From the IMG/VR virus record IMGVR_UViG_3300030451_002395, positions 282 through 25,031 of that record: a stretch of DNA of 24,750 bases; one strand, given 5' to 3'. Shown piece by piece: positions 11,789 to 20,440 of this stretch; positions within the stretch are counted from its first letter, which is position 1, and every line of letters begins with the position of its first letter. Source of the DNA: a virus. Position numbers and translations under genes: made by a program. Under the pieces are notes generated by a model. The model ran no database searches and had not been told where the DNA came from. It saw only the letters and a list, made by a program, of their open reading frames with translations.

Positions 11789-12355
11789 ATGAAAAAAAGT
11801 CCTTTATATATTAAATCTGGCATAGGTGTCCCTAGTCAAGGGTCTCCTATAAAAATATTTTCTAAGTTAAAAAAAGGTAAAAAAATTGCTAGCAAGTTGT
11901 ATAATTATGGTAAAAGTTATTTTACAGACACTGCAACTAAAACTACAAGTAAGATTGTAAAACCTACAACGACAAAGCAGATAACGCACAAAAAAACTTT
12001 ATCGCTTCCTGCTCCTGAAAAATTTGTTAGACACACGGATCCTAAATTAAGCCACAATATAACAAAAAAGATAGATTTATCAAAAACACACACTGGAAAG
12101 GGTCAAAGAAATTTAGTTTGGTTTGGTAAAGAAGGCACGGCCGGTGGTTACAAGTACCCAGGCAGACAAACTTTTACCGCTAATTTTAGTTTTAAAAAAC
12201 CTAAACATTACTCAACAAACCAAGTATTTAAAAACGAGGAGTTACAAAGTTTAATAAATAAAGGTTATGATATTGCTATAATGGGTAAAGGTAAAGGCGC
12301 TCATTACATGCCAATAAACAAAGCAATAATTAAGAATTTAAAAATAAAACCTTGA
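11789..12355 (+). CDS. Leader-module protein 1, possible ADP-ribosyltransferase-like C-terminus
   Basis: A 188-residue basic protein, first of the rightward arm. Residues 1-46 carry the leader shared by the next genes: K-K-S-P-L-Y, then G-S-P-I-K, then K-L-K-K-G-K-K-I-A-S-K-L-Y as a cationic amphipathic stretch. A Thr/Lys linker follows. The C-terminal 110 residues (F-V-R-H-T-D start, W-F-G-K-E-G, T-F-T-A-N-F-S-F, then G-Y-D-I-A-I-M and P-I-N-K-A-I-I-K-N-L) have the strand order of small phage ADP-ribosyltransferase-like domains, but I cannot verify the catalytic triad. The stop overlaps the next start as TTGA. The leader is seen; the enzyme idea is weak inference. Confidence 0.65.
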   Translation: MKKSPLYIKSGIGVPSQGSPIKIFSKLKKGKKIASKLYNYGKSYFTDTATKTTSKIVKPTTTKQITHKKTLSLPAPEKFVRHTDPKLSHNITKKIDLSKTHTGKGQRNLVWFGKEGTAGGYKYPGRQTFTANFSFKKPKHYSTNQVFKNEELQSLINKGYDIAIMGKGKGAHYMPINKAIIKNLKIKP

Positions 12356-12600
12356 AATCGTCTCCATTTAAAACAACTAAACAAAAACTGTCACCTAAAG
12401 CTTCTGCTGCTAAGAAACGTAGAGACAAAGCAGCGGCTATGAGTGAGTGGGGTAAGTATAAAAAGCGTACCGCACAAAGAGCGGGTTGTAAAAAAGGATA
12501 TGATTTTGATCATGCTACTGGTAAATGTATACCGGCGAGTAAAAATAGAGCTAATAACAGTAGATCTGGATCTACAAAAAAGAAATATGGATATGGCTAG
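12352..12600 (+). CDS. Leader-module protein 2, basic, TTG start
   Basis: An 82-residue strongly basic protein. The start is taken as TTG at 12352, overlapping the previous stop (TTGA), because it places the family-type K-S-S-P-F-K at the N-terminus; the next ATG is well inside. L-S-P-K follows, then a Lys/Arg/Ala-rich helix and a short C-K-K-G-Y-D-F-D-H-A-T-G-K-C-I-P motif (about 47-62) that could form one disulfide or bind a metal. The tail is Ser/Lys/Gly-rich. Its end overlaps the next gene by 8 bases. It might bind DNA in the virion or be ejected with it; no function is shown. Confidence 0.6.
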   Translation: MKSSPFKTTKQKLSPKASAAKKRRDKAAAMSEWGKYKKRTAQRAGCKKGYDFDHATGKCIPASKNRANNSRSGSTKKKYGYG

Positions 12601-13003
12601 AAAACCATTTAAAATGAAATCAGGTAACAGCCCGCTAAAAGTAGGTGGGTTGCTTTTAAACGCGGCTACAAAAGGACAAAAATTATGGAAATTTACCAAA
12701 AATGCTTATAAAGCGCTTGCTGTTGGTGACACTGCATTCCCTGATTTTTTAGGTGATTATCCAGATGACATGAGTATGACAGAAAAAAGACTACGTACTG
12801 CAGACGAATGGATAACATGGGGTGCTTTATCCAAGATGTATGACGGGATGGATAAAGCATTTGATCAGGGAAACATAAATATGAATGATCCAAAGAACAA
12901 GAAATATGCTGAATGGTATTACGGTTCAAAAGGCAATGAAAATGCTAATAAATCAACGCAAATTAAACCAGGTGATAAAATAGAGGCTATTTCAACAGAT
13001 TAA
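12593..13003 (+). CDS. Leader-module protein 3
   Basis: A 136-residue protein. I start it at the ATG at 12593, not further upstream, because this gives M-A-R-K-P-F-K-M-K-S-G-N-S-P-L-K-V-G, nearly the same opening as the gene at 15597. After it comes a K-G-Q-K-L-W-K-F-T-K-N-A-Y-K-A-L amphipathic helix (about 29-44). The rest is acidic and helical with E-K-R-L-R-T-A-D-E-W-I-T-W and K-K-Y-A-E-W-Y-Y. The body is unrelated to those of its neighbours. It overlaps the previous gene by 8 bases. Its function is unknown. Confidence 0.7.
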   Translation: MARKPFKMKSGNSPLKVGGLLLNAATKGQKLWKFTKNAYKALAVGDTAFPDFLGDYPDDMSMTEKRLRTADEWITWGALSKMYDGMDKAFDQGNINMNDPKNKKYAEWYYGSKGNENANKSTQIKPGDKIEAISTD

Positions 13004-13026
13004 ATAAACACATAAAACACAAAAAA

Positions 13027-13509
13027 ATGGGAAAAAAACCAATGAAAATGGTGAAAAAATCACCGGTAAAAGTAAATTCAGCGACAGAAGGTATGAGCGA
13101 AAAAGAAATAGCTGTTGCTAGAAGATCAGAAACACCTAGAGAAAAAAAAGTAAAGCCTGAAAAGCCAGATTCAGGACCAACACCTGTTACAATGAGAGCA
13201 CCATTTAAAATGAAAAACTCAATGTTAAGCATGAGTGCTAAAGATGGCTCGCCAATGCAGGCTAATTATGGTGGTTCACCTGTAAAAGTATTAACTAAGT
13301 ATAAAAAGTTAAAAAAATTAGCTTCTAAAGCATATACTAAGTTTTTTGGATCTTCTAAAACAGGTTATAATCCTGATTTAAACCCTTTTAGTCCAAAAAA
13401 CCAAAAAGGAACGAAGCCTACAATGGAAATTCCTCAAAATTTAAAAGAAATAAGAGACGAATATACTAATTTATTTCTAAAACATGGTAAATTAAAAGGT
13501 GATAAATAA
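13027..13509 (+). CDS. Leader-module protein 4, with the module repeated
   Basis: A 160-residue protein that carries the shared signature twice. The N-terminus reads K-K-P-M-K-M-V-K-K-S-P-V-K-V. From about 58 a second copy reads R-A-P-F-K-M-K-N-S, then D-G-S-P-M-Q, then G-G-S-P-V-K-V-L-T-K-Y-K-K-L-K-K-L-A-S-K, followed by A-Y-T-K-F-F. Between them is a charged linker rich in Pro, Glu and Lys. The C-terminal 45 residues are polar with N-P-D-L-N-P-F-S-P. No Shine-Dalgarno precedes the ATG, only an A-rich leader. It may be two fused or duplicated units. Confidence 0.68.
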   Translation: MGKKPMKMVKKSPVKVNSATEGMSEKEIAVARRSETPREKKVKPEKPDSGPTPVTMRAPFKMKNSMLSMSAKDGSPMQANYGGSPVKVLTKYKKLKKLASKAYTKFFGSSKTGYNPDLNPFSPKNQKGTKPTMEIPQNLKEIRDEYTNLFLKHGKLKGDK

Positions 13510-13512
13510 AAT

Positions 13513-13770
13513 ATGGCGTTTAATTTAAAATCAGGTAACACTACTAGCTTTAAAATGATGGGTAGTTCGCCGGTAAAAGTAGGAAAAATAGGAAAAGTTA
13601 AAAAACTTGTTCAAAAAAGCGTTGGTTTTGTCAAAAGTTTTTTCAATAAACCAAAAAATAACCCAAATTTAACAAAAACTGTTGAACAAACTGATAATTG
13701 GGACTATAACAGAGTTAAAAAGAGCCTAATGGATCAATTTGAGAACCAACCTGGATATAAAAACAAATAA
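13513..13770 (+). CDS. Leader-module protein 5
   Basis: An 85-residue basic protein that is mostly leader: M-A-F-N-L-K-S-G-N-T-T-S-F-K-M-M-G-S-S-P-V-K, then a cationic amphipathic helix K-V-K-K-L-V-Q-K-S-V-G-F-V-K-S-F-F (about 30-46). Only 35 polar residues follow. The stretch S-G-N-x-T-S-F-K-M-M-G-S-S-P-V-K recurs almost unchanged in the gene at 15597, indicating a recent copy. It lies 3 bases after the previous gene. The function is unknown. Confidence 0.65.
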   Translation: MAFNLKSGNTTSFKMMGSSPVKVGKIGKVKKLVQKSVGFVKSFFNKPKNNPNLTKTVEQTDNWDYNRVKKSLMDQFENQPGYKNK

Positions 13771-13780
13771 AAATAAGAAA

Positions 13781-14110
13781 ATGGCATTTAAAATGAAACA
13801 ATCACCTCATAAAGCAGGTGTTATAGAAGGGACTAGTCCTCACAAATTATACAAGAAGTATAAAAAACTAAAAAAATTTGGAAAAAAGATCTATGAAATG
13901 GTTACTGGCACACCTAAAAATAATAAAAAAATGTACGTTAAAAAAGATGGTGATGTTGTATACACAAAATCTGGTTATAGTAAAGATGGTGGTAAAACTA
14001 CTGGTTATTACCAAACGACAGATGGTAAAGTTGATCCAACAAAGACAATATCTTTAGATAAAACGGAGTTTAAAAATATAGATCATATAAACAAGCAAAT
14101 AAACCCTTAA
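13781..14110 (+). CDS. Leader-module protein 6
   Basis: A 109-residue protein. The start at 13781 gives M-A-F-K-M-K-Q-S-P-H-K-A-G, matching the family; the longer frame upstream would overlap the previous gene without similarity. A second S-P-H-K (about 19-22) precedes the cationic stretch L-Y-K-K-Y-K-K-L-K-K-F-G-K-K-I-Y-E, very like that of protein 4 (K-Y-K-K-L-K-K-L). The C-terminal 60 residues look like a small beta-rich domain with Y-V-K-K-D-G-D-V-V-Y and Y-Y-Q-T-T-D-G-K. The function is unknown. Confidence 0.68.
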   Translation: MAFKMKQSPHKAGVIEGTSPHKLYKKYKKLKKFGKKIYEMVTGTPKNNKKMYVKKDGDVVYTKSGYSKDGGKTTGYYQTTDGKVDPTKTISLDKTEFKNIDHINKQINP

Positions 14111-14120
14111 AAAAACATAT

Positions 14121-15590
14121 ATGGCATTTAAAATGAAAAAAACGCCTATGTTTGTAAATTCACCAGAACATAAGTCGGCGTTAAAAGCAAAATCAAGTCA
14201 ATACGTACTACCTGTGTCAGGTGGTGGTGATGCTGGTTTAATACAGGCTGGTAAAGAACTAGGGCTTTCAAGAGTGCCACATGCCATTGATTTTACTATA
14301 AAATATGATCCTTACAAAAAGTTTCAAAATAATCCAAGTCAAGCAAAAGAAAAACCTGAAAAAGAAGACCCTCCAAAAGATGACAATCAAAATACGAACA
14401 ATGCTAATCAAACTACTGAAAATAATAATAACAGTGAAATAAATGATACTGAGAATGATCAAGAGTTAAATAATGATGACGGTAGTGGTTCTACAATAGT
14501 TACTGGTGAAACAGGTACAACTGTTAATAATGTTGACATTGAAAATCCTAATCAAAATAATCAGGTTAATCTAGTAACGTTACAAACAATAATGCCTACT
14601 TTAGTACAAACAGGTAGGGTTGATAAAGATATAGCTCGTGCTACTAACCAGGCTATTACTAATATACGTAGTAGTAACGGTTCTGACAGGTTTGTAGAAG
14701 CTGCTGAAGGTTTTTTTGGTGAAATAGACAATGCGGAAGATTTATTAGCGGCTGAAGCACGTATGCAATATAATGACGAAACTGATCAGTGGGAATTAAA
14801 ACCTTCTCCACAGGTAATAAGTTTACCACAACAAAATATACAGCAAATACCTACTAACACGCCAGAATTTGAAATGCCATCTTCTGCTGACTACATACCT
14901 CCACAAACAAACTATGCGCATGAAAATTCAAAGTATGATGAGATAGCAATGCCTACAAAACCAAATAGAAGAGGAGTTGATGGTGCTGGACCAGATTTAA
15001 GTACAACTACTGACGAGGTCGACCCTAGATCTAGACCTGGTTATCAAATTCTTGTTAACGATGTAGATGGTGAGAAAAAAGCCGTGGTACTATATAACGG
15101 TCATATAGTTAATATTGACGAGTTGCCACCAGAAATTAGTGATCAAGAAATGGCTGACGGTAGAACTGTTAGAGAAACGTATATAGACATACAGGATGAA
15201 AACGAGCTTAAAGAAGTTGAAAAATCTGTGACTAATAATGAAGGCCAAGTAATTACTGTTCCAACTCAAGAGGAGTCTCAGTCTCAATCTACACCTGGGC
15301 CTATAAATCCAAATATTGAGTTTCAGCCATACCCAGAAGAAACAGAAACTGTGAAACCAGTTATTAGAAACCCAAGGAACAATATGCGTAAGTACAAATG
15401 GAATCAAGGTAAAGGAGGTTGGCTACCTGGTGGTAAAGAGCAGTATGAAAAAGATATGGAAAGATATAAAAATCAAAACAAAGAAAACACCAGTGCCGCT
15501 CAAATGAGAGATGACAAAATATATAACAACGCCGTGCCTGGCGGTCCGGTGCAAATGAACATGATTAAAAACGGTTACGTACCAAAATAG
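14121..15590 (+). CDS. Leader-module protein 7, large low-complexity protein
   Basis: A 489-residue protein that starts with the shared M-A-F-K-M-K-K-T-P-M and N-S-P-E-H but lacks the cationic helix. Residues 70-140 are a low-complexity Asn/Asp/Glu/Thr stretch, likely disordered. From about 150 there is a helical part (V-T-L-Q-T-I-M-P-T-L-V-Q-T-G, then R-F-V-E-A-A-E-G-F-F-G), and from 225 a long Pro/Gln/Glu-rich region. The end is Lys/Asn-rich with M-N-M-I-K-N-G-Y-V-P-K. The size and composition would suit a scaffold, a tape-like or an internal virion protein. I recognise no enzyme. Confidence 0.7.
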   Translation: MAFKMKKTPMFVNSPEHKSALKAKSSQYVLPVSGGGDAGLIQAGKELGLSRVPHAIDFTIKYDPYKKFQNNPSQAKEKPEKEDPPKDDNQNTNNANQTTENNNNSEINDTENDQELNNDDGSGSTIVTGETGTTVNNVDIENPNQNNQVNLVTLQTIMPTLVQTGRVDKDIARATNQAITNIRSSNGSDRFVEAAEGFFGEIDNAEDLLAAEARMQYNDETDQWELKPSPQVISLPQQNIQQIPTNTPEFEMPSSADYIPPQTNYAHENSKYDEIAMPTKPNRRGVDGAGPDLSTTTDEVDPRSRPGYQILVNDVDGEKKAVVLYNGHIVNIDELPPEISDQEMADGRTVRETYIDIQDENELKEVEKSVTNNEGQVITVPTQEESQSQSTPGPINPNIEFQPYPEETETVKPVIRNPRNNMRKYKWNQGKGGWLPGGKEQYEKDMERYKNQNKENTSAAQMRDDKIYNNAVPGGPVQMNMIKNGYVPK

Positions 15591-15596
15591 AACAAC

Positions 15597-16244
15597 ATGG
15601 CAAGAAAACCATTTACAATGAGATCTGGAAATAACACTTCATTTAAAATGATGGGTTCAAGTCCAGTAAAAGAACTAGTCGGTAATCAAGATAAAATCGA
15701 CATGAATAAAAACGGTAGAATAGATAGTGGTGATTTTGATATATTAAATGAAAAAAAATCACCATTAGAAGTAAACTTTTTTAAAAAAGGTAGAAAAATA
15801 AAAAAAGCCGCAGAAAAAACTATTGGCAAAGTATATGATTACTTTTTTAAACCAGCACCACAATCAACAACTGTAAGGGCAACATCGGGTGAAAAGTATA
15901 AAGTAGGTAAAAATAAAAAAGAACGAGTAAAAAGCAAAGAAGTTGATGCTAGTAAGGTACAAAAAGACATTGATGCTGCTTTTCAAGAGGGATTAAAAAC
16001 TAAAGCAAATAAATCTAAAGTTTCTAATATTATTAAACCTATACTTTACGGAGGAGGAATTGCTGGTGGTGGAGCTCTTGCTTACCAAGCTGGCTTTGAC
16101 GACGGATCAAAAGTTACAGTTGGTCCAATGTCGGGACCTGAGTATGAAAAAATAATCAACACGTACAACTCCGAAGTTGATTCTACAAAAACTAAAGAAG
16201 AAAAAAAGAAAAAGTACCCTGGCGGTGGCTATTCATACGATTAA
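15597..16244 (+). CDS. Leader-module protein 8 with EF-hand-like loop and hydrophobic segment
   Basis: A 215-residue protein. The leader is M-A-R-K-P-F-T-M-R-S-G-N-N-T-S-F-K-M-M-G and then S-S-P-V-K. Residues 35-46 read D-M-N-K-N-G-R-I-D-S-G-D, which matches a calcium-binding EF-hand or dockerin-type loop (Asp 1, Asn 3, Asn 5, Gly 6, Ile 8, Asp 12). K-K-S-P-L-E and the cationic stretch F-F-K-K-G-R-K-I-K-K-A-A-E-K follow, then Y-D-Y-F-F-K-P. Around 149-167 a Gly/Ala-rich hydrophobic segment could insert in a membrane. Its tail is Lys-rich and ends P-G-G-G-Y-S-Y-D. A membrane-crossing ejected protein is a possibility only. Confidence 0.7.
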   Translation: MARKPFTMRSGNNTSFKMMGSSPVKELVGNQDKIDMNKNGRIDSGDFDILNEKKSPLEVNFFKKGRKIKKAAEKTIGKVYDYFFKPAPQSTTVRATSGEKYKVGKNKKERVKSKEVDASKVQKDIDAAFQEGLKTKANKSKVSNIIKPILYGGGIAGGGALAYQAGFDDGSKVTVGPMSGPEYEKIINTYNSEVDSTKTKEEKKKKYPGGGYSYD

Positions 16245-16282: not shown

Positions 16283-16573
16283 ATGACTTATTTGTATTAC
16301 AAGTCGTCAAACTCGACGCAACCAATTAAACCCAACGAAAAAACTATTGAAAACTGGAAACACTTAGCTAATAAAGCTAATTGGAGAATAACACAGTTAG
16401 CCAATGGTTTTTATCAAACAGAAGTGTCAGAACCAGAAAAAGATGATTGGCACGCTGTAACAAGAAGAGAAACTATAGAAGGAGCTGAAACAGCTATTGA
16501 CGGAAGTGTTGATCATTTCAACAAAAAGTTAGAAGCAACAAAAGGTCCTAAAGTAATTAAAACATTCAAGTAA
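16283..16573 (+). CDS. Hypothetical protein upstream of groEL
   Basis: A 96-residue protein I do not recognise. It opens M-T-Y-L-Y-Y-K-S-S-N and has W-R-I-T-Q-L-A-N-G-F-Y-Q-T-E-V (about 33-47) and a D-D-W-H-A-V-T-R-R-E-T segment, with a helical end. The pattern of a short strand pair and an amphipathic helix suggests one small domain. A 38-base A-rich leader precedes it without a Shine-Dalgarno, sharing the words CTAATTATTAAC and CCAATACATAAAAC-like with the leader at 18410-18482. It lies 23 bases before groEL. Confidence 0.6.
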   Translation: MTYLYYKSSNSTQPIKPNEKTIENWKHLANKANWRITQLANGFYQTEVSEPEKDDWHAVTRRETIEGAETAIDGSVDHFNKKLEATKGPKVIKTFK

Positions 16574-16596: not shown

Positions 16597-18168
16597 ATGG
16601 AATACAATCATCCTAGCGAGATTGTCAAAGATGTTAACTTTGGTGATAAAGCTAGTAGTAAAATATTTGCTGGCGTAAAAAAGCTAGCTAAAGCAGTTAA
16701 ATCAACCTTAGGCGCAAGTGGTAAATGTGTTATTTACGAAGATGCCAGAGGTCTCCCGGTGATCACAAAAGACGGTGTAACAGTAGCAGAATCTGTTGTC
16801 TTGTTTGATCCGGTTGAGAATATGGGAGCAACGTTGATTAAAGAAGCTGCTAAAAACACAGTTAAAGAAGCAGGTGACGGTACTACAACAGCTACTGTTC
16901 TTGCAGAATCTTTAATTGAAGAAATTAACAAAAACGTTTACAAAAACTTTACTATAAGAGACATCAAAGAAGGTATAAATTCTGGTCTTGAAAAGGTAAA
17001 AGATTATTTAGATAAGATCTCTGTAAAGATTGAAGGTGATATGCTGAAATCTGTTAGTTCAATTAGTTGCAATAATGATGCAGAACTAGGAAAGATTATA
17101 GCAGAGGCTTATACTAAAGTAGGTAAAGATGGTGTTGTGTTAATGGAAGAGTCGCCAACTGAAGAAACATACGTTGAAATAGTTGACGGTGTACAAATCG
17201 ATTCAGGGCTTACGTCTCCACATTTTGTTACAGACAAAGATAAACAAGTTTGTGAGCTTGATAATCCGTTAGTTTTAATAGTAACATCTGAAATACCTAA
17301 TATACGTAAGATACAAAAAATACTAGAGCACGTTATAAAAAATAAAAGATCTTTGTTAATTGTTGCTCCAGTTGATCAGCAAGTTAAAGCAGCTTTACTT
17401 ATGAATAAAGTAAAAGGTAATATCAAAGTAAATATAGTTGATTTACCAGGCTTTGGTCCTACTAAAAACGACACTTGCGAAGATTTTGCTTTTTTAACAG
17501 GAGCAAAAGTAATAAACGAACAGCTGGGAGACGATTTAGATTTAATAGATGTAGATTGTTTGGGTGAAGCTCACTCTTGCGTTACAGACTCTAAAAACAC
17601 TGTTCTTACAATTGACACTCCTGAAAAGGAACTAAAACAAAGAATAAAAAGTATACAAAAGCTAATAGACAAAGAAGATAAAAATCCTTTCATTAAGAAA
17701 AAGCACCAACAAAGATTAGCTATGCTTTCAGGAAGTGTTGGTATAATCAAAGTAGGTGCTAATTCCAAAATTGAACTTAAAGAAAAGAAAGATAGGGTTG
17801 AAGACGCTATATATGCCACAAAAGCAGCATTAAAAGAAGGTATTGTGCCTGGTGGTGGTGTAGCTTTGTTAAACGCATCAGAAAGAATACCGTCAGAAAA
17901 CACTGGCGAAATCATATTATTAAACGCTATTAAATCACCTTATCAAACTATATTATCTAACGCTAGTATAGAAAAAGGAGAAGAACTTGCTGGAGGTCAT
18001 GGCATAAACGTTGTTACAGGCGAAGAAGTCGATATGATTGAAGCAGGTATTATAGACCCTGTACTTGTAACCAAGTCAGCACTTAAAAATGCAGTAAGTG
18101 TTGCCACTACAATTATATCTGCAGATTGTGTAATTTCAAACATGAGGTTAGATGAAAGCAGTAAATAA
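16597..18168 (+). CDS. groEL: Phage-encoded chaperonin GroEL
   Basis: A group I chaperonin subunit that would assemble into a ring that folds proteins with ATP. At 523 residues it is slightly shorter than the usual 540-550. The hallmarks are present: K-D-G-V-T-V-A at about 58-64, G-D-G-T-T-T-A-T-V-L-A at 93-103 with the catalytic-loop Asp, and V-E-D-A-I-Y-A-T-K-A-A-L-K-E-G-I-V-P-G-G-G near 400-420. The apical domain (about 190-370) is recognisable but diverged, and L-G-A-S-G-K replaces the usual L-G-P-K-G-R near the nucleotide site. The C-terminal Gly-Gly-Met tail is missing. The stop overlaps the GroES-like start by 17 bases. It probably folds capsid or other virion proteins. Confidence 0.96.
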   Translation: MEYNHPSEIVKDVNFGDKASSKIFAGVKKLAKAVKSTLGASGKCVIYEDARGLPVITKDGVTVAESVVLFDPVENMGATLIKEAAKNTVKEAGDGTTTATVLAESLIEEINKNVYKNFTIRDIKEGINSGLEKVKDYLDKISVKIEGDMLKSVSSISCNNDAELGKIIAEAYTKVGKDGVVLMEESPTEETYVEIVDGVQIDSGLTSPHFVTDKDKQVCELDNPLVLIVTSEIPNIRKIQKILEHVIKNKRSLLIVAPVDQQVKAALLMNKVKGNIKVNIVDLPGFGPTKNDTCEDFAFLTGAKVINEQLGDDLDLIDVDCLGEAHSCVTDSKNTVLTIDTPEKELKQRIKSIQKLIDKEDKNPFIKKKHQQRLAMLSGSVGIIKVGANSKIELKEKKDRVEDAIYATKAALKEGIVPGGGVALLNASERIPSENTGEIILLNAIKSPYQTILSNASIEKGEELAGGHGINVVTGEEVDMIEAGIIDPVLVTKSALKNAVSVATTIISADCVISNMRLDESSK

Positions 18169-18409
18169 TTACATAGTAGTAAAAAACATAAAAACAGGAC
18201 CTAAAAAAGTTGCCGGTCTTATAATGACAGACAAAACAGATGTTGACAATAGGTATGTAAAGGCCGATGTAATATCTATAGGTAATTTAGTAGAAGGCAT
18301 AAAAGAAAAAGACGTTGTATATTACGACAAGCACGCTGGTCATGACATACAACACAACGAAATACTATATAGAGTTATTAGATCTTTAGATGTAGTACTC
18401 ATAGATTAG
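18152..18409 (+). CDS. groES: Phage-encoded co-chaperonin GroES-like
   Basis: The lid for the GroEL ring. The 85-residue protein has the cpn10 order: N-Y-I-V-V-K-N-I-K, then a mobile loop with G-L-I-M (about 22-25, taking the place of the conserved Ile-Val-Leu that contacts GroEL), V-I-S-I-G, a K-E-K-D-V-V-Y-Y strand where GroES has V-G-D-x-V, and the closing Y-R-V-I-R-S-L-D-V-V. At 85 residues it is a little shorter than the usual 95. It overlaps groEL by 17 bases and follows it, the reverse of the bacterial groES-groEL order. T4 gp31 is the precedent for a phage co-chaperonin. Confidence 0.85.
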   Translation: MKAVNNYIVVKNIKTGPKKVAGLIMTDKTDVDNRYVKADVISIGNLVEGIKEKDVVYYDKHAGHDIQHNEILYRVIRSLDVVLID

Positions 18410-18482: not shown

Positions 18483-18824
18483 ATGAATTATTTGTATTTT
18501 GCAGAAGCAGAAGTCGAAACTACAGGAGAAGCAGCTATGTATCCAGCTAGCTCTTTTATAGGTTTAGATCCTATTTCTGCAACAACGACTAGACTGTCGT
18601 TTAAATCAAGAAACAACGCTGGCGCGGGTGACGATGATGTATTGTTAACGCATGGTACTAGAACGCACGCTCAAGTAGCTGAATTAATAGCTAGCGTGTT
18701 AGAACCAAGCCCAGGTAACAGAGGTAAGTTTATAGTGGTTGCCGATGAAATGAACGGTGTTTACTTAGACAGCGGTAATGGAGCTGATTTAAGTGGAACT
18801 GTAACAATAACAACTTTAGCTTAA
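18483..18824 (+). CDS. Probable virion protein, first of three tandem paralogues
   Basis: A 113-residue protein with strand-rich, Thr/Ala/Gly-rich composition typical of small decoration, fibre or head proteins. Motifs shared with the next two genes are Y-L-Y-F-A-E-A near the start, Y-P-A-S-S-F-x-G-x-D-P-I-S-A-T-T, L-S-F-K-S-R, D-D-D-V-L-x-T-H, and a closing V-T-I-T-T strand. Charge is low and there is no cysteine. Three similar copies in a row suggest a heteromeric or dosage-related structural part. No enzyme motif is seen, and the assignment to the virion rests on composition and position. Confidence 0.65.
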   Translation: MNYLYFAEAEVETTGEAAMYPASSFIGLDPISATTTRLSFKSRNNAGAGDDDVLLTHGTRTHAQVAELIASVLEPSPGNRGKFIVVADEMNGVYLDSGNGADLSGTVTITTLA

Positions 18825-18849: not shown

Positions 18850-19185
18850 ATGGAAAGATATTTTTATTTTGGAGAAGCTACTGTTGAAACTACAGGAGAA
18901 GCTTGTTTGTTTCCTTTATCTTCATTTTTAGGAGCTACTCCAGCAACAGCAGGAAGAACTACATTACACTTTAAATCAAGAAACGGTGCTGCTACAGACG
19001 ATCAAGTTTTATGCTATCACACTGGTTTTAGTACAAAAGACTTTGCAATATATTTAGGTGGTTTACTTAGAAAAAACCAAAGAAATCCTTTTATATATGT
19101 TAGAGGTGCGGACACAGAGACTGGAGACTTTGCTCCTTCTAAACCAGTAGTTATAGATCAAGTAACTGTTACAACTGAAGCTTAA
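18850..19185 (+). CDS. Probable virion protein, second of three tandem paralogues
   Basis: A 111-residue relative of the neighbours on both sides: E-T-T-G-E-A is identical to the first copy, S-S-F-L-G-A-T-P matches S-S-F-I-G-L-D-P, and H-F-K-S-R-N-G-A-A-T-D-D-Q-V-L matches the K-S-R-N-N-A-G-A-G-D-D region. It differs in the second half (L-L-R-K-N-Q-R-N-P-F-I-Y-V-R-G-A) and has two cysteines. It closes with V-T-V-T-T-E-A. It begins 25 bases after the first copy with an A-rich leader. Confidence 0.65.
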   Translation: MERYFYFGEATVETTGEACLFPLSSFLGATPATAGRTTLHFKSRNGAATDDQVLCYHTGFSTKDFAIYLGGLLRKNQRNPFIYVRGADTETGDFAPSKPVVIDQVTVTTEA

Positions 19186-19208: not shown

Positions 19209-19559
19209 ATGAACGATACATACATATATATAGCTGAAGGAACAGGATCTGATGCTGCAGGTGATTCTGTTTTATATCCAGCTGCTAACTTTACAGGTAT
19301 AGACCCTATATCTGCTACAACATCAAGAATATCATTTAAAGCATTAACAGGTAACGCTGCTGATGATGATATTTTAGTAACACACGAAAGTGGAAAGTTC
19401 AAAGAACTTTGTCAAGCTTTGGCTTTAGCATTAAATACTACTAAAGGTGGTACTGTTGTGTTTATAGATCAAGATAACAAAATTTTCTTTGATGAATTAA
19501 TACAAAACGGAGCTATGTCTGGTGTTAACTCTGATCCTGTTATTACATTAGACACATAA
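19209..19559 (+). CDS. Probable virion protein, third of three tandem paralogues
   Basis: A 116-residue protein, closest to the first copy in its centre (G-I-D-P-I-S-A-T-T-S-R-I-S-F-K against G-L-D-P-I-S-A-T-T-T-R-L-S-F-K) and sharing N-A-A-D-D-D-I-L-V-T-H. The second half (L-A-L-A-L-N-T-T-K-G-G-T-V-V-F-I-D) is its own. It is acidic with few charges otherwise. It lies 23 bases after the second copy and ends 3 bases before the winged-helix candidate. Confidence 0.65.
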   Translation: MNDTYIYIAEGTGSDAAGDSVLYPAANFTGIDPISATTSRISFKALTGNAADDDILVTHESGKFKELCQALALALNTTKGGTVVFIDQDNKIFFDELIQNGAMSGVNSDPVITLDT

Positions 19560-19562
19560 TAG

Positions 19563-20003
19563 ATGCGATTAACTGCGCAAGATCTGCGTAGAATGAATAT
19601 CCTTAAGTATTACAGGCTCACAAGAAAGTGGGTCTGTAAAACTTACGGGTTAACAGATGCAGATTTAGAATTATTAATTTATTTAGATTGTAAAGAAAGA
19701 TTTACACGACAAGAGTTTATAGACGGTACTTACACATACTCATGGGACAAAAACCGTTGGGAAAGGCTACGAAGAGATGGTTGGATAGAAGTTTGGAGAC
19801 AGAGAAACAGAACAACTATAAAATATTCAATATTTAAAACATCTTTTAAATGTAGTCAATTAATAAGTAGAATATACAGAATACTTTTAGGTGAAGAAGA
19901 TTTACCCACATCTGAAAGAAGTATATTTTTTAATAACAAATCGTATACAGATAAAGTTTATAATAAAGCTATAGATGATATGATTAAAGATAAAGATAGA
20001 TAA
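19563..20003 (+). CDS. Probable winged-helix DNA-binding protein
   Basis: A 146-residue basic protein. The first 90 residues read like a MarR-type winged helix: L-T-D-A-D-L-E-L-L-I-Y-L as the opening helix (about 31-42), F-T-R-Q-E-F then W-D-K-N-R-W-E-R-L-R-R-D-G-W-I-E-V-W-R as recognition helix and wing, and T-T-I-K-Y-S-I as the closing strand. The rest is helical with L-I-S-R-I-Y-R-I-L-L. In phages this position, among structural genes, could mean a late regulator or a packaging factor. It shares one base with the next gene (TAATG). The fold is inferred from pattern. Confidence 0.55.
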   Translation: MRLTAQDLRRMNILKYYRLTRKWVCKTYGLTDADLELLIYLDCKERFTRQEFIDGTYTYSWDKNRWERLRRDGWIEVWRQRNRTTIKYSIFKTSFKCSQLISRIYRILLGEEDLPTSERSIFFNNKSYTDKVYNKAIDDMIKDKDR

Positions 20004-20440
20004 TGGGGTTTAAATTAGGTACAAATAGAGGTAATTATGCTGTTAGAGGTGAAATTAAAACTAAATTTAGTTTTGGTAGAAAACCTAGTAGTGACGTGTC
20101 TGTGCCTGGTACTCCTATAATAAGAACTGATTTAGAAGAAGGCGTTTTTGGAGAAGCTAATATGGATGGCAGTATATTTATTAGTAATAAGCTAGAACCT
20201 AATAGCTTTGAAGAAAGACAGACAATAATACATGAAATGAGACATGCTACAGATATGAAGTTAGGTAAGTTATCTTATGACGATGATCATATAATGTATA
20301 ATGGTGAAAGATTTGAAAGAAAAGATATAAATGGTATTGATTCTATATTAGTAGACGGTGAGTGGAAACAAGCTGGTGACGATGGTTTTCCTTGGGAAGA
20401 CGATGCTAATAATGGTAATCACACAAATACACTTAGTTAA
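20003..20440 (+). CDS. Putative zinc metallopeptidase (HExxH)
   Basis: A 145-residue protein with H77-E-M-R-H81-A-T-D, an HExxH zinc-binding motif inside a helix that is preceded by E-R-Q-T-I-I, as in small metallopeptidases. The preceding G-S-I-F-I-S strand fits the edge strand of such folds. The third ligand is not certain; H96 or a nearby acidic residue is possible. It opens M-G-F-K-L-G-T-N-R-G, faintly like the leader genes. The acidic W-E-D-D-A-N-N-G-N-H tail is unusual. It could process virion proteins or attack a host protein or peptidoglycan link. No signal peptide is seen. Confidence 0.6.
   Translation: MGFKLGTNRGNYAVRGEIKTKFSFGRKPSSDVSVPGTPIIRTDLEEGVFGEANMDGSIFISNKLEPNSFEERQTIIHEMRHATDMKLGKLSYDDDHIMYNGERFERKDINGIDSILVDGEWKQAGDDGFPWEDDANNGNHTNTLS

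Follow-up and report, generated by a model that had tools for sequence, protein, structure and literature searches.

The 24,750-nucleotide stretch analysed here (hereafter 'the window') is part of a 25,031-base virus record, IMGVR_UViG_3300030451_002395, and harbours between positions 11789 and 16244 a cluster of eight consecutive genes, most of which code for dissimilar proteins with a common short N-terminal module. This module combines a core, FK[ML]K(G), with SPxK-like elements. Our analyses show that it is an N-terminal tag conserved at the protein level, not a product of low complexity, and that it is found in front of many unrelated bodies in a lineage of uncultured phages. The reading that we favour, which we regard as evenly balanced between right and wrong, is that the common N-terminus is a virion-targeting leader, i.e. 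a signal for loading that one conserved head component recognises, in the manner of the capsid targeting sequence (CTS) of phage T4.

The N-terminal module in the window

The eight genes of the cluster, which we designate by their first base, are the following.

11789..12355, + strand: 188-residue basic protein in which only the SPxK half of the module is present (MKKSPLYIKSGIGVPSQGSPIK, 11789-11854); an amphipathic Lys-rich helix comes next
12352..12600, + strand: 82-residue very basic protein with a TTG start and an N-terminal SSPFK; body homologous to gp080 of phages phi38:1 and phi40:1
12593..13003, + strand: 136-residue protein whose leader, MARKPFKMKSGNSPLK, has its core at 12605-12640; the start of the gene and the stop of 12352 overlap (ATGGCTAG)
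13027..13509, + strand: 160-residue protein with the module twice, a degenerate copy at 13027-13071 and a full copy at 13198-13287
13513..13770, + strand: 85-residue protein with the leader MAFNLKSGNTTSFKMMGSSPVK (13513-13578)
13781..14110, + strand: 109-residue protein with the leader MAFKMKQSPHKAGVIEGTSPHK (13781-13846), followed by an amphipathic helix
14121..15590, + strand: 489-residue protein with the leader MAFKMKKTPMFVNSPEHKSALK (14121-14186), present in an identical copy in contig G001
15597..16244, + strand: 215-residue protein with the leader MARKPFTMRSGNNTSFKMMGSSPVK (15597-15671), followed by an EF-hand/dockerin-like loop (DMNKNGRIDSGDF)

A first, sequence-only reading of this DNA had described eight consecutive genes that all open with one leader, made of an FKMK-like stretch and SPxK. 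The eight genes all run in one direction, and the leader holds for most of them. An FK[ML]K-like core is present in six of the eight proteins, within the first 20 residues of 12593, 13513, 13781, 14121 and 15597 and in the internal second copy of 13027. Genes 11789, with SPLY/GSPIK, and 12352, with SSPFK, have SPxK-like elements without the core. SPx[K/Q] occurs in the first 60 residues of seven proteins; 14121 carries NSPEHK and not SPxK. Shuffling that preserved composition (2,000 rounds) gave expectations of 0.1 of the eight proteins for the core (maximum 2) and 0.38 for SPxK (maximum 3). The start of the third gene is at 12593 (or 12587). The reported duplication of the module in 13027 was confirmed, with the degenerate copy KPMKMVKKSPVK at the start and the full copy, APFKMK...GSPMQANYGGSPVK, at residues 58-87.

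Genes 13513 and 15597 had been noted for a near-identical stretch. Their common segment is indeed identical at 15 of 16 residues, against only 33 of the 48 corresponding bases, which argues for selection on the protein and not for a recent DNA duplication. Judging from this comparison, the two leader copies are old and have been held constant at the protein level.

The Lys-rich amphipathic stretch that had been described as following the leader in six genes fared less well. Compared with shuffled sequences it is significant in 11789 (p=0.012) and 13781 (p=0.006) and borderline in 12593 (p=0.052) and 13513 (p=0.050). Among 146 tagged proteins found elsewhere, 14% reached p<0.05, with a median p of 0.41. 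We therefore rejected the amphipathic helix as a general component of the module; the proposal of membrane-active cargo was founded on this stretch.

Pfam and PHROG yielded no useful annotation for the proteins of the window, and no further member of the 11789 family was found among the fetched viral proteins. The 15597 loop (DMNKNGRIDSGDF) is common to other tagged proteins and matches Dockerin_1 weakly (E 0.009). Two relatives of 14121, L025:4641 (514 residues) and L021:2403 (413 residues), likewise begin with MAF[KN]M. The tagged proteins L025:4641 and L210:5967, both with MAFKMK starts, harbour a Cys motif, GC..A.N(Y/F)...A..DDG(S/T)C.Y; L025 groups with gene 14121, and the C-terminal wording of L210 resembles that of 14121 by eye only.

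One leader, many bodies

To obtain loci not picked by the motif itself, we fetched relatives through the phage GroEL gene of the window (67 loci) and searched their proteins for the core as [FY][KTNRQ][ML][KR] in residues 2-12. It was present at the N-terminus of 69 of 1,314 distinct proteins, with chance expectations of 1.7 from internal windows of the same proteins and 3.3 from shuffles (maximum 6). SPx[K...] was found in the first 60 residues of 39 of the 69 core-bearing proteins versus 50 of the 1,245 others. A leader profile built from the relatives, with the window's own genes held out, matched 87 proteins at E<1e-3, the seeds being counted among them, and had no match in five-fold shuffles or in reversed sequences. 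In the window this profile recognised 12593 (E 4.6e-7), 13027 (E 3.7e-4) and 13513 (E 5.6e-3) at E<0.01 and, marginally, 13781 (E 0.052), whose leader resembles a subtype, FKMKGSPAKLGTIQGTSGH, found elsewhere. It did not recognise 14121 and 15597.

Additional viral contigs came from scanning with patterns of two leader subtypes and with MAFKMKG, those for MAFKMKG being taken from among the matches listed. The 226 viral loci of the enlarged set code for at least 334 tagged proteins in about 205 body clusters, 167 of them singletons; as this set was partly chosen by motif, its counts describe diversity and not enrichment. When 148 representatives were aligned, MAFKMKGxP...G...SPxK was common to them and nothing was conserved after it. 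Recurrent subtypes after the core are FSGFGNSPVK, SPMQRNFGIGSSPVK, SPAKLGTIQGTSGH and RSGNKPSIAKLAGVSPMK, and single bodies occur with differing leader subtypes (L008:816, L023:8346, L047:4368, L103:10749).

The codon use of the leaders is close to that of the bodies, which together with the 13513/15597 comparison indicates selection on the peptide. A translation-start signal and a DNA-level duplication were rejected along with low complexity, on these results and on the shuffle and reversal controls.

In the cellular genomes and cultured phages searched we did not recover the leader. In 257 Gb of cellular genomes, the pattern FKMKGFSGFGN had no match and MAFKMKG had 27, none of which reads like a leader. 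Tblastn searches of cultured phages and a search of the leader alone against PHROG, for both of which short queries are weak, found no match. Neither did a six-frame scan with the leader profile of phi38:1, Panino (last 50 kb), MW202828 and elemo (last 40 kb). A viral pattern for the SGNxxSFKMMGSSP subtype, probably too strict, also gave no match.

Position and nature of the tagged proteins

Scoring was possible for 269 tagged genes, and every one of them shares its strand with the late core genes, none being on the opposite one. This favours a late over an early position, early expression being among the outcomes that the sequence-only reading had named as refuting its proposal. The tagged genes occupy recurrent slots, upstream of a small conserved gene like that at 16283, between that gene and GroEL, and between the counterpart of 19563 and a holin-like gene; in some phages they are also found between the portal and scaffold-like genes (L165, L240).

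Tagged proteins differ from the others in composition, with a median isoelectric point (pI) of 9.8 versus 6.4, 17.6% versus 10.1% Lys and 0.19% versus 1.0% Cys. Few bodies could be identified. They include LysM (2.9e-13), in one case with matches to endolysin PHROGs, DUF6321 (4e-10), EF-hand-like loops and, in one protein, an S74-like C-terminus (E 0.001, just below the Pfam cut-off). PHROG matches of the S74-like part are to virion structural (2.5e-17), DNA ejection (3.1e-9) and tail fibre families. A second tagged protein matches the N-terminus of a virion structural PHROG family (1.2e-6). Three tagged proteins (L248:10971, L254:4077, L122:16) have a recurrent C-terminal domain, AAKRKF[KD]V[WY]PSAYA[SN], of which untagged copies exist in relatives too.

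A link to virions

An indirect link to a particle comes from gene 12352, which belongs to a separate conserved basic family that is SSPxK-tagged in some genomes only. The profile of this family matches phi38:1 gp080 with 60.7 bits, the best of 1,000 shuffles of gp080 reaching 7.8. The phi40:1 counterpart is 100% identical to phi38:1 gp080 over 79 aligned residues, and its record annotates it as a structural protein from experimental tandem mass spectrometry (MS/MS) proteomics. Structural annotations from MS/MS are also given for two small late proteins encoded nearby in phi40:1, gp069 and gp077. Of the 42 members of the 12352 family, 19 carry an SPx tag (such as MKSSPIRL) at the N-terminus, before KQKLSP, and two more have GTPxK; most of the others begin directly at KQKL. 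The SPxK half of the module is thus optional on a body whose relative is found in the virion.

Proposed virion targeting and the alternatives

We propose that the leader would be a short unstructured peptide, with the core, a variable linker and one or more SPx[K/Q] elements, that would bind one common structural partner during head assembly. Most plausibly this partner would be inside the procapsid, as a scaffold-like protein or the inner wall of the capsid. The scaffold-like protein is acidic (pI 5.0; net charge of -16 in its first 100 residues), making it a candidate partner of the basic leader. The small, basic, cysteine-poor bodies and the enzyme-like domains would be carried in or on the particle, and some tagged proteins may enter the host with the DNA. 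Arguments for virion targeting are the protein-level conservation of the leader, the late strand, the head-gene neighbours, the diversity of the bodies, the occurrence of single bodies with differing leader subtypes, the gp080 homology, the PHROG matches to virion and ejection proteins and the AlphaFold2 model of the 20003 protein (see below), with its low-confidence N-terminus ahead of a folded domain. We also count in its favour the basicity of the tagged proteins, which we liken to the DNA-contacting internal proteins of T4 (PMC3012670). Packaging by the leader, its binding partner, the location inside the head and ejection are all steps that we infer, and the even balance stated at the outset applies to the reading as a whole.

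The sequence-only reading had proposed a sorting, packaging or ejection tag on varied cargo. The protein-level conservation, the varied cargo, the late strand, the head-gene neighbours, the MS/MS-annotated homologue and the tagged enzyme-like and LysM bodies support this idea. Several findings weigh against virion targeting by the leader. In phi40:1, gp080 lacks the tag and is nevertheless annotated as a virion protein, which makes the SPxK half unnecessary for incorporation in that relative. We found no virion proteomics covering any FKMK-tagged protein. No prohead protease family was recognised among the late structural proteins of contig G013 searched, a miss that does not prove absence, and the 148 representatives show no conserved residue pattern after SPxK that could be a cleavage site. 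The number of tagged genes per large contig varies from 0 (G005) to 7 (G010), which implies that the tagged set is accessory. Several leader subtypes coexist in single genomes, and the motif is internal in 13 cases. Finally, leaders within a genome are only modestly more alike than leaders of different genomes (p about 0.001), a likeness on which we do not rely because undetected homology of bodies could contribute to it.

The main rivals to virion targeting are a purely intracellular address and docking outside the particle. According to the former, the tag sends late, non-virion proteins to a site in the cell such as the membrane, the nucleoid, the lysis apparatus or the phage GroEL. The clustering of tagged genes near GroEL/GroES and a holin-like gene, the Lys-rich amphipathic stretches of some window genes and the endolysin matches of the tagged LysM body would fit such an address. 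However, one member of the cluster, 12352, is homologous to the MS/MS-annotated gp080, tagged genes are also found between the portal and scaffold-like genes, and the amphipathic stretch is not general; we consider this explanation unlikely, if the strongest of the rivals.

Slightly less probable in our view is that the leader docks proteins outside the particle, on the fibre hub, the neck or the capsid surface, as some tail-fibre N-termini do. In the crAss001 virion, residues 1-26 of the tail-fibre protein gp22 serve for its docking (PMC10172136). The tagged protein with the fibre-typical S74-like domain and tail fibre PHROG matches, and the tagged LysM body, are also in keeping with an exposed location. 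Nevertheless, the majority of bodies are short and very basic and show no recognisable fibre, adhesin or trimerisation domain, and the remaining S74-bearing relatives found have no leader.

The leader might alternatively be a DNA-binding element, the proteins condensing DNA without a common protein receptor. Leader and body alike are strongly basic, and SPxK resembles SPKK-type minor-groove motifs. We regard this as improbable, since the best conserved part of the leader is not SPKK but FK[ML]K(G) with its aromatic residue, and a metallopeptidase-like domain that is acidic (pI 5.2 in G013) also carries a variant of this core.

An origin in low complexity, in a translation-start effect or in the recent copying of a DNA element is largely refuted and very improbable: start regions are Lys- and A+T-rich and KMKK-repeat proteins occur in the same genomes, but the shuffle and reversal controls, the body-like codon use, the synonymous divergence of the window copies, the internal motif copies and the absence from the cellular genomes searched all speak against it, including against the low-complexity origin that the sequence-only reading had named as its own counter-argument. 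The KMK/AMKMKK-repeat proteins with SPxK near the start (L085:13410-13703, L040:8320, L122:836) may be low-complexity sequences or, alternatively, relatives of the module in an extreme form.

Comparison with known systems

Returning to virion targeting, the closest analogy is with T4, in which a short N-terminal leader is the sole conserved part of internal proteins that are otherwise highly diverse, and brings them into the scaffolding core (PMC3012670, PMC7411985). As with the CTS of IPI-IPIII and Alt, the module described here is a short N-terminal leader on a highly diverse set of small, otherwise unrelated proteins. In contrast with the T4 CTS, the core is FK[ML]K(G) with SPxK, the bodies are far more numerous, some tags are internal, and no prohead protease or cleavage site was recognised. 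We do not file the leader as a CTS because neither homology to that of T4 nor cleavage is established. N-terminal extensions have also been proposed to target ejection and head proteins of SPN3US to the prohead (PMC7411985); those cited are propeptides of 111-130 residues removed by a prohead protease, whereas the leader has about 20-30 residues and no recognised cleavage site. In crAss001, another phage of Bacteroidota, virally encoded cargo proteins are stored in the capsid and tail, and the available part of the report mentions no shared short leader (PMC10172136).

Tags of virion proteins are thus already known in kind, and the present one is wider in its range of bodies than known examples. 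Short cargo-loading peptides are also used by encapsulins, in which a hydrophobic and Gly-containing peptide, usually C-terminal, binds the inner wall of an HK97-fold shell; NFGIGSSPVK may resemble such peptides. The string 'FKMKG' was not found in the literature text searched, which is weak evidence of novelty as sequences are rarely given in text.

If the tag does load virions, hundreds of unannotated 'dark' phage proteins become predicted virion cargo from sequence alone, the T4 strategy of one leader for many payloads has a second case, and a short portable loading tag is available for a Bacteroidota phage, in a field with few tools. A bolder and doubtful extension is that the five-residue FKMKG core and SPxK form a modular loading code for hundreds of fast-changing payloads, injected into Bacteroidota as effectors or counter-defences. 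The payloads of such a code would tentatively range over metallopeptidase-like, LysM, EF-hand-like and DUF6321 proteins and many of unknown nature, in a lineage that is abundant and marine.

A metallopeptidase-like family with a leader-like N-terminus

The sequence-only reading had also suggested that some cargo may be enzymatic. Tagged enzyme-like and LysM bodies were found; a conserved candidate lies downstream of the cluster.

20003..20440, + strand: conserved 145-residue HExxH metallopeptidase-like protein that begins with a variant of the core, MGFKLG...

Members of this family are present in many of these phages. Most of them start with MGFKLG or MAFKLG; in ten, FKMK occurs among the first 25 residues instead. 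An alignment of 67 sequences shows at least 90% conservation of M1, F3 and K4 and invariant H77, E78 and H81; as HExxH was also the collecting criterion, its invariance is partly by construction. The AlphaFold2 model (mean pLDDT, the predicted local confidence score, of 73.7) has low confidence over the first ~30 residues, followed by a folded domain. The selecase MJ1213 matches the family weakly in sequence (E 0.016). The top fold matches in the PDB include IrrE, selecase and abylysin; the first four are all of the metallopeptidase type, and the matches are weak, partial and individually not significant (E 0.2-0.75). The family has the invariant HExxH in common with minigluzincins and IrrE/SprT-like metallopeptidases and differs from them by its leader-like N-terminus. 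The combination of an HExxH domain with such an N-terminus makes it plausible that the 20003-type protein is enzymatic cargo.

HExxH-like or related motifs (IHEGAH, GEEISH, TAELGH) are also found in the tagged proteins L030:7899-8909, L226:630-1595 and L264:6179-7084, which had no Pfam or PHROG match and are possibly, by these motifs, further metallopeptidase-type cargo.

Genetic environment and lineage

The genes of the window are arranged in two blocks of opposite direction, with the point of divergence near 11.4-11.8 kb. In the right block, the eight genes of the cluster are followed by the small conserved gene 16283, GroEL, GroES and small late genes, among which are the following.

16597..18168, + strand: phage GroEL, with a Cpn60_TCP1 Pfam match (E 2.2e-54), used as the anchor for collecting the 67 related loci
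18152..18409, + strand: putative GroES-like gene, named from gene order and sequence
19563..20003, + strand: conserved 146-residue protein, homologue of phi38:1 gp078 (E 7.4e-18 for phi38:1, 5.4e-26 for Panino), possibly with a winged-helix fold

A near-identical region is present on a second contig (G001, 46.9 kb), in which the right block runs on into TerL, portal, scaffold-like and capsid genes. The counterparts of those genes in G013 have PHROG matches to portal and virion structural families. In G013 (L078-L081), about 600 bases within GroEL are repeated at both contig ends, which implies a complete genome of ~71.4 kb.

The TerL of the lineage matches only those of phages of Flavobacteriia (Flavobacterium elemo, Cellulophaga, Tenacibaculum, Maribacter) and of one uncultured podovirus. 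The latter, MW202828, is the nearest (64.6%), and its record gives no family. With phi38:1, phi40:1, Calle (Pervagoviridae) and Elemovirus, the lineage shares the TerL-portal-structural order, a homologous TerL and a homologous gp078, and with phi38:1, phi40:1 and Calle also the basic protein gp080; unlike the lineage, phi38:1 and the scanned elemo stretch lack the FKMK leader. Based on the homologous TerL and the common head-gene order, the phages described here are uncultured relatives of the podophages phi38:1 and phi40:1. As the TerL matches are confined to phages of Flavobacteriia, apart from the one uncultured podovirus, the host is probably a marine member of Bacteroidota.

The GroEL is only ~40% identical to GroELs of cultured phages. 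In a 2026 study, phi38:1 GroEL is listed as one of the methylated proteins found in samples of free virions (PMC13288928). The 19563 protein marks a gene order partly common with cultured relatives, in which gp078 adjoins gp077. Beside GroES, three tandem paralogues of ~111-116 residues (18483-18824, 18850-19185 and 19209-19559) adjoin the gp078 homologue, in a position that resembles that of phi40:1 gp077, structural by MS/MS; a search for homology to phi40:1 gp077 detected none. About 125 members of the family of these paralogues are encoded in the loci fetched.

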